Shown piece by piece: positions 37,965-43,517 of a stretch of DNA of 64,000 bases. The DNA lies in the NCBI RefSeq assembly GCF_000013005.1, contig NC_007722.1, positions 1,617,501 through 1,681,500 on the forward strand, in the 5' to 3' direction. The first letter of the stretch is position 1, and each line of letters starts with the position of its first letter. The position numbers and the translations under genes are program-made. Source of the stretch: Erythrobacter litoralis HTCC2594 (GTDB taxonomy: Bacteria; Pseudomonadota; Alphaproteobacteria; Sphingomonadales; Sphingomonadaceae). The notes under the pieces were generated by a model. That model had not been told where the DNA came from and ran no database searches. It saw only the letters and a list, made by a program, of their open reading frames with translations.

Positions 37965-38855
37965 ATGTCCATCCTCGTAAACAAAGACACCAAGGTCATC
38001 ACCCAGGGGATGACCGGCAACACGGGCACCTTCCACACGCAGCAGGCGCTCGATTACGGGACGCAGATGGTCGCGGGTGTGACCCCCGGTAAGGGCGGCA
38101 CCGAGCATATCGGCCTGCCGCAATTCGACACCGTGCGCGAGGCCAAGGACGCGACCGGCGCGACCGCGAGCTGCATCTATGTCCCGCCACCCTTCGCCGC
38201 CGATGCGATCTGCGAAGCGATCGATGCCGGGATCGAGCTGATCATCTGCATCACCGAGGGCATTCCGGTGCTCGACATGGTCCGCGCCAAGCGCGCGCTG
38301 CAGGGCTCCAACTCGCGGCTGATCGGCCCCAACTGCCCCGGCGTGCTGACGCCGGACGAGTGCAAGATCGGCATCATGCCGGGTTCCATCTTCAAGAAGG
38401 GCAGCGTCGGCGTCGTCTCGCGCTCGGGCACATTGACCTATGAAGCCGTGCACCAGACCACCATGGTCGGCCTCGGCCAGTCGACCGCGGTCGGCATCGG
38501 CGGCGACCCGGTCAACGGCACCAACTTCATCGACGTGCTCGACCTGTTCCTCGACGATCCCGAGACCAAGAGCATGATCATGATCGGCGAGATCGGCGGC
38601 AGCGCCGAAGAAGAAGCCGCTGCCTTCCTCAAGGCCGAGGCGGCCAAGGGCCGCAGCAAGCCGACGGTCGGCTTCATCGCCGGCCGCACCGCCCCTCCGG
38701 GCCGCCGCATGGGTCACGCCGGTGCGATCGTCTCCGGCGGCAAAGGCGGCGCGGACGACAAGATCGCCGCGATGGAAGACGCGGGCATCCGCGTCAGCCC
38801 CTCGCCAAGCGAACTCGGCACGACGCTCGACGCGATGCTGAAGGAAATGGCGTGA
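37965..38855 (+). CDS. sucD: Succinyl-CoA synthetase alpha subunit
   Basis: A 296-residue subunit of normal length. [17 protein letters not shown] binds Co[13 protein letters not shown] follows, and [15 protein letters not shown] contains the histidine that is phosphorylated during catalysis. With the beta subunit it converts succinyl-CoA to succinate with nucleotide triphosphate formation. The beta gene (sucC) is not next to it; the place before sucD is taken by an unrelated secreted protein gene. ATG 37965 follows TAGGGGAAACC. Confidence 0.97.
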
Positions 38856-38926
38856 TCGCCAAGGCCCTCTATATGAGTCCCAGCGCAGGCTGGGACCTCC
38901 CTCAATCTGGCGCGAGCCCGATGGAG

Positions 38927-38946
38927 GCTCCAGCCTGCGCTGGAGC
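38927..38946. repeat. Internal palindrome of the GIY-YIG unit
   Basis: GCTCCAGC-CTGC-GCTGGAGC forms an 8-bp stem with a 4-base loop. It is an inverted copy of the left arm. Two base pairs differ from the outer arms, with both strands changed, so the stem is conserved rather than the letters. Confidence 0.7.
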
Positions 38947-38956
38947 TCACGGCTAG

Positions 38957-39244
38957 TTGAAGGGCGGTTTTGTCTACATCCTCACCAACCGAAAGGATGG
39001 AGTTCTTTATCTCGGAGTGACCAACGACCTTGCCAATCGGGTGGAGCAGCATCGAACCGGGACGGTCTCAAGCTTTACGAAGAAGTATCAATGTCATCGG
39101 CTCGTCTGGTTCGAGCCATTCGAAAATATTCACGACGCCCGCGAAACCGAAAAACGGATGAAAGCATGGAAACGCGCTTGGAAAATTCGGCTCATCGAGG
39201 AGGCCAATCCGGGTTGGAACGATCTGGCCGACACCCTCGTTTGA
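38957..39244 (+). CDS. GIY-YIG nuclease family protein
   Basis: A 95-residue single-domain protein. FVYILTNRKDGVLYLGVTNDLANRVEQH carries the GIY-YIG pair as VYI...YLG with the conserved arginine; WFEPFENIHDARETEKRMKAWKR has the metal-binding glutamate. Such UPF0213-type proteins are small DNA endonuclease-like enzymes. The start is TTG at 38957; no ATG is available. The gene is closely framed by inverted repeats, suggesting it moves with them. It is co-directional with the TCA genes. Confidence 0.82.
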   Translation: MKGGFVYILTNRKDGVLYLGVTNDLANRVEQHRTGTVSSFTKKYQCHRLVWFEPFENIHDARETEKRMKAWKRAWKIRLIEEANPGWNDLADTLV

Positions 39245-39258
39245 CAAGCGCCAAGATG

Positions 39259-39295
39259 AAGGAGGTCCCAGCCCTCGCTGGGACTCACAATCACT
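39259..39295 (+). promoter_or_regulatory. sucA ribosome binding site separated from ATG by a hairpin
   Basis: AAGGAGGT at 39259-39266 is a near-perfect Shine-Dalgarno but lies 29 bases before the sucA ATG (39296). The hairpin 39265-39284 lies between them. If it folds, AAGGAG comes to about 11 bases from the ATG. No other ribosome binding site is visible. The site belongs to the right arm of the GIY-YIG unit. Confidence 0.45.
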
Positions 39296-42148
39296 ATGGG
39301 TAACGAAACGCACGACTTCATGCCCGAAATGGGCGACCAGGGAGACCCGCAACAGGGCCCGAGCTGGGGCAACCCGCGCTGGCTGGCGGAAGTCGCGGAT
39401 GCCGATGCCGACCTGACGGCGGCGCTCGACCCGACGCAGATGAAGCTCGCGGTCGAAGCGGCGGCGAAGCAGGCGGGCAAGGCCGCCGATCCGAAAGCGA
39501 TCGAGGAAGCGGCGGCGGATTCGATCCGCGCGATGCTGCTGATCCGGCTCTATCGTGTGCGCGGGCATATGGCGGCCAATCTCGACCCGTTGGGCCTAAA
39601 CGACAGCAAGGAGCCGGCCGACCTCCAGCTCGAATGGCATGGCTTCGCCGGTCAGGAGGACAAGGAAGTCTTCGTCGGCGGTGTGCTCGGTTTCGACTGG
39701 GTGACCGTGCGCGAGCTCTACGACACCTTGCGCGCGACCTATTGCGGCAATGTCGGCCTCGAGTACATGCATATCGCCGATACCGAGGAACGGCGTTTCC
39801 TGCAGGACAAGTTCGAAAGCCCCGGCGAGACGATCCAGTTTACCGATGAAGGCAAGCAGGCGATCCTGTCTGCGGTGATCCGCGGCGAGCAATACGAAAC
39901 CTTCCTCGGCAAGAAATATGTCGGCACCAAGCGCTTCGGCCTCGATGGCGGCGAAAGCATGATCCCGGCGTTGGAAGCAGTCATCAAGCAGGGCGGCCAG
40001 GCCGGCGTGCGCGAAATCATCTACGGCATGGCCCACCGCGGGCGATTGAATGTGCTCGCCAACGTCATGGGCAAACCCTATCGCGTGATCTTCCACGAAT
40101 TCTCCGGCGGGAGCGCCAATCCCGAAGACGTCGGCGGATCGGGGGACGTGAAATATCACCTCGGCACCAGCACCGACCGCGCCTTCGACGATATCGAAGT
40201 GCACATGTCGCTGGTCCCCAATCCCAGCCACCTTGAAGCGGTCGACCCCGTGGTGCTCGGCAAGACCCGCGCGCAGCAGGCGATCCGCGACGACCTCACT
40301 AAGCACCAGCAGGTCCTGCCGGTGCTTATCCACGGCGACGCGGCTTTCGCGGGCCAGGGGGTGGTGTGGGAAAGCCTCTCGCTCTCCGGCATCCCCGGCT
40401 ACAACACCGGTGGCTGCATCCATTTCATCATCAATAACCAAATTGGTTTCACGACCAGCCCGAAATTCGCCAGATCGTCACCGTACCCCAGTGACGTTGC
40501 CAAAGGCATCCAGGCGCCGATCCTGCACGTCAACGGCGACGATCCGGAAGCGGTGACCTTCGCCTGCAAGCTCGCGATCGAATACCGCCAGACCTTCGGC
40601 CGCGACGTAGTGATCGACATGTGGTGCTATCGCCGCTTCGGACATAACGAAGGCGATGAGCCCAAGTTCACCCAGCCACTAATGTACGATGCCATTCGCG
40701 CGCACCCGAAAGTCAGCAAGATTTACGCCGAACGGCTTATCGAAGAGGGTGTGATCGACAGCGATTATGCGGCCCAGCAGGAGAAGGCGTTCACCGAGCT
40801 CCTGCAAGACGAATTCGACGCGGCGGAAAATTACGAAGCGAGCAAGGCCGACTGGTTCGGCGGGCGCTGGGCGGGGCTCAACAAGCCGGTCGATGCCGAA
40901 ACCGCGCGGCGCAATGTCGAAACCGCGATCGAGAAGAAGCTGTTCGACAGCCTCGGCCAGAAGCTGACCACCGTTCCCGACGACCTGACCCCGCACAAGA
41001 CTTTGCTGCGCGTCCTCGATGCCAAGCGCCAGATGTTCGACAGCGGCGAGGGTTTCGACTGGGCTACTGCAGAAGCGCTCGCATTCGGCAGCCTGGTGAC
41101 CGAAGGCTTCGGCGTTCGCCTATCGGGCCAGGATTCGGGCCGCGGCACCTTCAGCCAGCGCCACGCCGTCTGGGTCGACCAGAAGGATGAGCACAAATAC
41201 ATTCCGCTCGTCCACCTGCCACACGGCAAGTTCGAGGTATATGACAGCCCGCTGTCCGAATTCGGCGTGCTCGGCTTCGAATACGGCTTTGCCATGGCCG
41301 ATCCCAAGACACTGGTGTTGTGGGAAGCGCAATTCGGCGATTTCGCCAATGGCGCGCAGATCATGATCGACCAGTTTATCGCCAGCGGCGAAGCCAAGTG
41401 GCTGCGCGCAAACGGCCTGGTGATGCTATTGCCGCATGGCTACGAAGGCCAGGGGCCGGAGCACTCCAGCGCCCGTCTTGAGCGCTTCCTGCAACTGTGC
41501 GCCAACGACAATATCCAGGTCTGCAACATCACGACGCCGGCCAATTACTTCCATGTGCTGCGCCGCCAGATGCTGCGCAGTTTCCGCAAGCCGATGGTTA
41601 TCATGACGCCCAAGAGCCTGCTGCGCCACCCGATGGCGAAAAGCAGCGCCGAAGAATTCATGGGCGACCATCATTTCATGCGCATCAAGTCGGACCTCAA
41701 GGAAATCGACGACACAAAGGTCAAGCGGCTGGTGCTTTGCAGCGGCAAGGTCGCCTACGACCTCATGCAGAAACGCGACGAGGAAGGCATCGAGGACATT
41801 TCGATCGTTCGTATCGAGCAGCTCTACCCCTTCCCCGGCGAGCCGCTGACCGTCCGGCTCAAGCGCATGACCAATCTCAAGGAAATCGTCTGGTGCCAGG
41901 AAGAGCCCAAGAACAACGGCGCGTGGTTCTTCGTCGACCGGCTGATCGAACAGGCCGCTCTCGACGCGGGGCACAAGCTACGCCCGATCTATGCCGGCCG
42001 CGAGGTCGCGGCATCGCCGGCAACGGGCTTCGCCAGCCGCCACCAGGCGCAGCAGGAAAGCTTGGTGTGCATCGCTCTCGACCTCGCCAATTGCGGCGAG
42101 ACCGCCAAGGTCACCCTGAAACGCCCGCCGAACAAGCCAAAGGGCTGA
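39296..42148 (+). CDS. sucA: 2-oxoglutarate dehydrogenase E1 component
   Basis: A 950-residue E1 subunit of normal length. [19 protein letters not shown] is the N-terminal signature. [37 protein letters not shown] and NNQIGFTT form the thiamine-diphosphate site. [19 protein letters not shown] and [17 protein letters not shown] belong to the C-terminal transketolase-like part. It decarboxylates 2-oxoglutarate and passes the succinyl group to OdhB. The upstream region, including its only good ribosome binding site, is part of the mobile GIY-YIG unit. Confidence 0.97.
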
Positions 42149-43424: not shown

Positions 43425-43517
43425 TCCGTTCGGGCTGAGCCTGTCGAAGCCCTGTCCTTCTTCTGGACCGACGGAAAAAAGGAAGTACAGCCCTTCGACA
43501 GGCTCAGGGCGAACGGA
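43425..43517. repeat. Large inverted repeat between odhB and lpdA
   Basis: Arms 43425-43460 and 43482-43517 are inverted copies of about 36 bp, containing CTGAGCCTGTCGAAG, with a 21-base spacer. A single arm of the same family occurs inside the HTH protein gene at 11072-11094. The form is that of a REP/BIME-like element or a small non-autonomous transposon. The right arm ends in GGAG (43514-43517), which is the ribosome binding site of lpdA. Confidence 0.85.

Follow-up and report, generated by a model that had tools for sequence, protein, structure and literature searches.

A GIY-YIG nuclease gene between inverted REPs at the sucD-sucA junction of Erythrobacter litoralis, and a candidate enzyme for CGTC-type REPs

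The CGTC-tagged REP superfamily, found chiefly in alphaproteobacteria, was described by Di Nocera, De Gregorio and Rocco in 2013 (PMC3733652). According to the available text of that survey, these REPs have a stem of 8-9 bp, a loop of 4-5 nt, an end tag and a short opposite tail, and are mostly arranged as head-to-head dimers; the Neisseria dRS3 repeats are CGTC-1 REPs. The same text associates no enzyme with CGTC REPs, does not contain the term GIY, and describes links between these REPs and transposases as only fortuitous. In the RAYT (TnpAREP) systems, excerpts of two papers describe enzyme-REP co-evolution and vertical inheritance (PMC8049555, PMC8266576), which are parallel to the nuclease-REP relation reported here. 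Inverted REPs around a dedicated enzyme gene and dispersed REPINs are features common to the RAYT systems, whose REPs are of the GTAG type, and to the system described here; RAYT belongs to the HUH tyrosine (Y1) enzymes, whereas the protein studied here is of the GIY-YIG type (PF01541) rather than Y1.

I-TevI and I-BmoI are GIY-YIG homing endonucleases. GIY-YIG enzymes cleave DNA by hydrolysis, and strand joining is not known for them; therefore, they are not transposases by themselves. Eukaryotic Slx1 is described as a structure-specific nuclease in the accessible part of PMC1564403. No paper linking GIY-YIG proteins to REPs was found among the matches listed in a search limited to an open-access library of papers, and no published link between dRS3 and a GIY-YIG gene was found among the best 15 of 512 matches. 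The term GIY is absent from the available text of PMC12306157 and PMC6006769, and the word overlap in PMC10928387 is unrelated. The link between these nucleases and REPs is likely to be new.

The window analyzed here is a stretch of 64,000 nucleotides from E. litoralis HTCC2594. The element under study and its neighbors are as follows (window positions).

37965-38855, forward strand: sucD, the upstream neighbor
38874-39287: the whole element between sucD and sucA, made of a REPIN, a GIY-YIG gene and a third REP
38874-38949, forward strand: complete REPIN of two inverted REPs, TGAG tags outward and tails inward, with hairpins at 38877-38896 and 38927-38946
38877-38896, forward strand: left REP hairpin GTCCCAGC-GCAG-GCTGGGAC, perfect 8-bp stem and 4-nt loop
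38927-38946, forward strand: second (inner) REP hairpin GCTCCAGC-CTGC-GCTGGAGC, likewise with an 8-bp stem and 4-nt loop
38957-39244, forward strand: GIY-YIG nuclease gene, 95 aa, TTG start, with Y7, Y18, R28 and E65 present
39248-39287, reverse strand: right arm, an inverted copy of 38874-38913, TGAG tag outward
39264-39287: single REP of the right arm, inverse to the first REP, with a hairpin at 39265-39284 (8-bp stem, 4-nt loop)
39296-42148, forward strand: sucA, the downstream neighbor, whose start codon is 8 nt from the element
43426-43516, forward strand: REPIN with CGTTCG-class tags and no gene, between sucB and lpd

An earlier note, made from the sequence alone, had described two outer arms of about 40 nt, each forming an 8-bp hairpin, around a single gene. 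The arms at 38874-38913 and 39248-39287 are indeed 40-nt inverted copies, 85% complementary, with 8-bp hairpins. The two-arm layout holds for the right side, which is a single REP, but the left side is a whole two-REP REPIN rather than one arm. The 95-aa GIY-YIG protein is the sole gene inside, as proposed, and no TCA gene is broken, the element lying between the end of sucD (38855) and the start of sucA (39296). In architecture and length (78 nt in the search pattern), the REPIN matches two other dispersed REPINs. The single-stranded DNA fold of the 76-nt left part reached z=-5.9, the three single hairpins folded alone reached only z=-2.1 to -2.5, and the palindrome had 59 forward matches in its own genome versus 2 for the reversed pattern at up to 2 mismatches. 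The fold of the left part and the genome matches indicate that the palindrome is beyond chance. Within the window alone, the two palindrome matches at up to 3 mismatches were reached in 11 of 100 shuffles and are compatible with chance.

The compensating base changes reported for the third hairpin are present: relative to the outer hairpins, GTCCC/GGGAC is read from the sequence as GCTCC/GGAGC. Such paired changes are real family-wide, as two free stem positions of GAG-type REPs were paired in 70/74 and 71/74 cases, with about 40 expected. However, hairpin-templated correction during replication could also create paired stem changes without selection; therefore, the claim that the structure is under selection is not supported.

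The window arms resemble the CGTC superfamily in stem (8-9 bp), loop (4-5 nt) and head-to-head dimers. They differ in reading TGA-GTCCCAGC with a G-C first pair, instead of a CGTC, TGTC or CCTC tag with A-T first pairs. Because of the TGAG tag and the G-C first stem pair, we regard the window REPs as a sister class and not as strict CGTC-1 REPs. The window element and the CGTTCG-tag REPIN at 43426-43516 represent two different REP systems in one suc gene cluster. The right REP hairpin (39264-39296 region) leaves 11 nt to the start codon of sucA, whose translation it may influence. A promoter search of 38800-39350 gave no sigma-70-like match; thus, the nuclease may be expressed by read-through from the suc genes. 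A known structured RNA at the element is unlikely, as the only two matches were to miRNAs and far below gathering scores. A defence gene is also unlikely, with one weak PADLOC match (E=0.005) over 45 residues.

The window protein matched the GIY-YIG domain (PF01541, E=5.7e-14), and the match includes the two Tyr, the Arg and the Glu of the GIY-YIG type, which places it in the GIY-YIG nuclease superfamily. Eight columns were invariant in 75 aligned proteins (Y7, Y18, G20, T22, R28, H32, E65 and N84). The AlphaFold2 model had a mean pLDDT of 95. The nearest solved structure by sequence was 1zg2 (E=4.6e-11), and the nearest folds were the UPF0213 proteins 1zg2 and 1ywl followed by Slx1-Slx4, at TM 0.48-0.57 with only 1zg2 under E=0.001. 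The domain search and the model revealed no second or extra DNA-binding domain in the 95-aa protein. It resembles the UPF0213, or bacterial Slx1-like, proteins (1zg2, 1ywl) and Slx1-Slx4 in fold and minimal single-domain layout, and differs from Slx1-Slx4 in that its 95 aa hold one domain only. The catalytic domain and the mobile-element setting are shared with the GIY-YIG homing endonucleases; in contrast to these, the window protein is single-domain and flanked by REPs, and probably not placed in an intron or intein. An Slx1-like fold, as modeled, would suit hairpin or cruciform substrates.

The genome of E. litoralis HTCC2594 (one 3.05-Mb contig, rated 100% complete) contains nine GIY-YIG loci, one UvrC-like and eight others. 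Seven of these eight non-UvrC genes lie between inverted REP arms, with at least five stem types among them; the exception is L002, with an inverted-repeat score of 21. The six arm-flanked sister elements carry a CGTC-like tag outside the hairpin, as in the CGTC superfamily (CGTCA at L001, L003, L004, L006 and L007; AGTCA at L008). A profile search for Y1/RAYT (PF01797) gave no match in this genome, which rules out a RAYT as its REP enzyme.

The association of nuclease genes with arms was then scored across genomes. For each nuclease gene, 220 nt upstream were aligned with the reverse complement of 260 nt downstream, and arms were called at an inverted-repeat score of at least 30, a threshold set after the first controls; genes over 105 bits were assigned to subfamily A, that of the window. 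The Sphingomonadales set comprised the own genome and 39 relatives, from which 77 non-UvrC places were fetched and 74 kept (L090 and L096 were dropped for absence of the domain, and L098 with a score of 16). In this set, inverted arms were present at 42/49 subfamily-A loci and 19/25 other nuclease loci, versus 3/435 shifted windows at the same loci and 0/21 UvrC-like genes, recognized by long open frames. At a stricter score of 34, the values were 58/74 nuclease loci versus 0/435 shifted windows. In Pseudomonadota, 64 of 150 genomes (own included) had a match, and 70 of the listed matches were fetched, with contig-edge, fragment and many weak matches excluded. Arms were found at 36/45 subfamily-A and 5/5 other nuclease loci (34/43 and 5/5 without L159 and L160, repeats of loci seen in the earlier set), versus 4/414 shifted windows. 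None of the 20 low-scoring small GIY-YIG genes examined had REP arms (0/20), which sets the window's nuclease apart from UPF0213/Slx1-like proteins.

In Bacteroidia, 65 of 99 genomes had a match. We give 18/29 loci with arms, the query gene left out, because 8 of 38 loci came from two genomes picked for already having such a gene; these loci are the best matches to the query at any score and not a random draw. By score, arms were present at 21/34 loci with the cut lowered to 80 bits and at 9/13 at 105 bits (two of the nine are one gene), and in 3/216 shifted windows. Among loci from named species, 8/14 had arms at the threshold, a count that includes the same sucD-sucA element three times. Records from a plasmid collection had arms at 12/14 loci, near-copies included (14 of 35 were fetched); the loci without clear arms were Rhizobium K1/93 and Photobacterium GJ3. 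In the merged set without named duplicates, arms were present in 92/114 of A, 25/28 of B, which includes truncated A genes, and 2/27 of C, where both arm-bearing cases are gene fragments (L095, L098); hence, 22/114 subfamily-A loci had no arms at the threshold.

The plasmid-collection records also yielded several observations in their own right. In Planktothrix agardhii plasmid p1 (L236, 2185-3099), the neighbors of the nuclease gene are an MmeI-type restriction gene on one side and the DISARM gene drmA on the other. In N. gonorrhoeae (L229), a GIY-YIG gene of one record lies between dRS3-like repeats of the CGTCATTCCCGC type; this 2.17-Mb record, filed as a plasmid, is chromosome-sized. The S. 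meliloti Ak57 'pSymB' record (L232, L250) is 3.7 Mb long and carries genes such as gltA, lpxB and purQ, which are usually chromosomal; based on this size and gene content, the label may be wrong.

These counts make the association between the nuclease and REP arms close to certain, and strongly support the earlier proposal that REPs are paired with a GIY-YIG enzyme in the place of a RAYT; contrary to the first refuting outcome named in that note, such arms accompany GIY-YIG genes in Sphingomonadales, Pseudomonadota and Bacteroidia. Chance or hitch-hiking would mean that REP-rich genomes place REPs beside any small intergenic gene, and REPs were common in many genomes examined. The shifted windows in all three groups, the UvrC-like genes and the other small GIY-YIG genes reject chance and REP richness, and we give this explanation hardly any credence.

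We compared arm class with nuclease descent on a tree of 134 proteins (87 columns, many forks unresolved), using arm classes defined by regular expressions of our own making. Arm class required 29 changes on the tree versus a shuffled mean of 65.4, with 0/200 shuffles as low; the classes 'oth' and 'brady' barely clustered (19/500 and 24/500 shuffles as low). One deep nuclease clade, B (15 rows), has all 12 arms with CGTTCG-type tags. Between genomes, the similarity of proteins correlated with that of arms (r=0.380), versus a mean of 0.112 and a maximum of 0.261 in shuffles within genomes (0/2000; 99 loci from 47 genomes, of which 26 had at least two). As shuffling arms inside the same genome never reached r=0.380, host descent is not behind the match. 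Of 78 comparisons with the nearest protein in another genome, 57 showed that protein to have the more similar arm, 7 were ties and 14 were opposite. That is, enzyme and REP class co-vary, as in RAYT-REPIN systems.

Next, REP abundance was compared with the presence of the nuclease clade in 40 genomes (own and 39 relatives, not independent of each other), with at least 4 REP copies as the cut. The clades per genome were our assignment from the tree; a broken copy in G001 was assigned from its arms, which its nearest proteins bore out. GAG REPs, counted with the nuclease's own arms, reached this cut in 4/4 genomes with the window's nuclease clade and in 0/36 without it (p=1.1e-5). The four are the own genome (G000, L005) with 21 matches, G001 (L030) with 31, G002 (L041) with 7 and G019 (L063) with 55; the other 36 genomes had 0-2. 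Three of the four belong to one genus, whose fellow members G003 and G004 (73% complete) lack both the REPs and the nuclease. CTGAAC REPs reached the cut in 9/10 genomes with their clade versus 2/30 without (p=1.9e-6), or 8/9 versus 3/31 with the broken G001 copy uncounted (p=1.8e-5). The CGTTCG class showed a modest association (8/11 versus 8/29, p=0.013; leaving aside the divergent copy of G008, 8/10 versus 8/30, p=0.005). For mismatched nuclease-REP pairings, p ranged from 0.02 to 0.3. Co-occurrence was thus clear in two of three REP classes and modest in one. Counts of the CGTC-1 REP pattern did not simply track the number of GIY-YIG genes; 48 CGTC-1-type REPs in G021 (85% complete) and 24 in G032 were found with only a UvrC-like match in each. 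REPs without a detected nuclease were also seen for CTGAAC (G021, G023) and were common for CGTTCG (G001, G002, G013).

Dispersed inverted REP pairs with outward tags, as in RAYT-REPIN systems, were present. In the own genome, eight REPINs of 78-82 nt, the window's included, were matched in the fetched loci. By eye, the L013 REPIN has end sequence beyond the hairpin in common with the L004 right arm; the same holds for the L017 REPIN and the right arm of the window element. The stems of GAG REPs match the arms of the resident nuclease in the own genome (CCCAGC, 10/14) and G019 (CCCCGC, 38/41); G001 is mixed (9 CCCCGC and 8 CCCAGC of 18), and G002 has one exact match. As the stem class follows the resident nuclease arms in two genomes, these sequences hint at a continuing exchange between nuclease arms and dispersed REPs.

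The same observations bear on homing, in which the nuclease gene is a parasite that cuts REPs lacking the gene and is copied by repair into the REPIN spacer, with the REPs spreading otherwise. The gene does occupy the place of a REPIN spacer, its arms resemble the dominant REPs of the genome in two of four cases (own genome and G019), and gene-less REPINs were read by eye in the sucD-sucA gap of two other genera (L127, L128). However, nuclease copies per class are very low, whereas matching REPs number up to 134, and in different genera a nuclease clade tends to stay with one arm class. In addition, GAG REPs are absent where the nuclease clade is absent, an outcome not predicted by homing into REPs that already exist. 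We therefore consider homing unlikely.

The history of the window copy was examined through its protein clade (L005, L145, L146, L149, L030, L041 and L063; SH-aLRT 97). The sucD end lies upstream in 7/7 members and sucA downstream in 6/7, the L146 stretch being too short to reach sucA; four of the seven placements were judged by reading the sequence. Because all seven members found occupy one site in seven genomes, recent mobility is ruled out and the earlier term 'mobile unit' is not supported for this copy, which, judging from these placements, is an old resident and not a recent insertion. A sucD ortholog (73-94% identical) was found in 28/29 relatives searched, with none found in G009. The nuclease gene does not sit in the same place in all relatives, the sucD-sucA site being without it in most of those examined. 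Within the same genus, the sucD-sucA gaps of G003 and G004 are short (93 and 106 bp) and contain no such REP. The sucD-sucA nuclease of Erythrobacter sp. PW10 (L149, 2501-2770) appears frameshifted, a possible sign of decay in one lineage.

Among six intact window-clade copies, dN/dS was 0.09-0.23 (10/15 pairs gave a value, with synonymous sites near saturation), indicating by codon comparison that the nuclease of this clade is under purifying selection. Purifying selection and a long stay at one site would also be expected if the nuclease served the host by trimming or resolving REP hairpins and cruciforms and were co-selected beside REPs without spreading them, and the nearest fold after UPF0213, Slx1-Slx4, is a structure-specific nuclease. 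Such house-keeping leaves unexplained both the inverted REPs on either side of the gene in most loci and the several separate nuclease-REP classes per genome; we regard it as improbable.

Filled and empty sites were seen elsewhere. In Azospirillum lipoferum 4B (L235, 2355-2971), a nuclease element flanked on both sides by a REPIN lies between sufB and sufC and breaks no gene; sufB-sufC of A. ramasamyi and A. oryzae (matches 94.8% identical) has no such REP, and B510 is without the gene. In Sphingobium, TomMM7A has the element, TomTYG72 does not, and TomTYG64/74 has a lone REP tagged at both ends; in Sinorhizobium, C101 has the element and Ak57 a lone double-tagged REP at that site. The lone double-tagged REPs (L247, L248, L250) may represent either a deletion scar or an older state. 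No movement event or target duplication was seen in the comparison of filled and empty sites, whose intergenic flanks are too diverged to fix boundaries. Filled and REP-free sites between close species, as at sufB-sufC, would suit an ordinary insertion sequence that has unusual ends and is mobilized by another palindrome-recognizing transposase, and terminal inverted repeats around an enzyme gene are present in the insertion-sequence style in the window, Sphingomonadales and Pseudomonadota. This account is highly improbable: no gene other than the nuclease lies between the arms in closely read loci, the search of the own genome for the Y1 family gave no match, and the links of CGTC REPs with transposases are only fortuitous in the available text of PMC3733652.

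We judge it somewhat probable that the window element is an autonomous member of a REP system and that the nuclease, by cutting its own REP class, drives the spread of that class. It is likely that the nuclease acts on its own REPs, and the best current explanation is that it probably spreads or maintains them. In the proposed mechanism, a small Slx1-like GIY-YIG endonuclease would recognize its own REP class, a short unpaired tag with an 8-9 bp hairpin, when exposed on single-stranded or cruciform DNA. Its cut at or near the tag would allow REPs and REPINs to be copied or moved by host repair. Dispersed REPINs that contain no gene would then be non-autonomous dependants of the nuclease, in a MITE-like relation. 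The window copy would be the resident, long-conserved nuclease of GAG-tagged REPs, kept at sucD-sucA as RAYTs are for GTAG REPs.

Beyond this locus, we lean slightly towards a second, independently evolved class of REP-propagating enzymes, in which Slx1-like GIY-YIG nucleases of many paralogous lineages, each with a tagged palindrome of its own, would serve CGTC-type REPs (Neisseria dRS3-like and GTCATTGCGAG-type included) in Pseudomonadota, Bacteroidota and perhaps Cyanobacteria, through hairpin nicking and not transposase chemistry. CGTC-type REPs occur in several phyla and have no dedicated enzyme in the available text of the 2013 survey (PMC3733652); the nuclease is the best candidate for this missing enzyme, and a concrete one in at least two phyla. 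If true, REPs would also have gained an enzyme partner that has no relation to RAYT, and proteins now vaguely annotated as 'GIY-YIG nuclease family protein' would gain a biological role.
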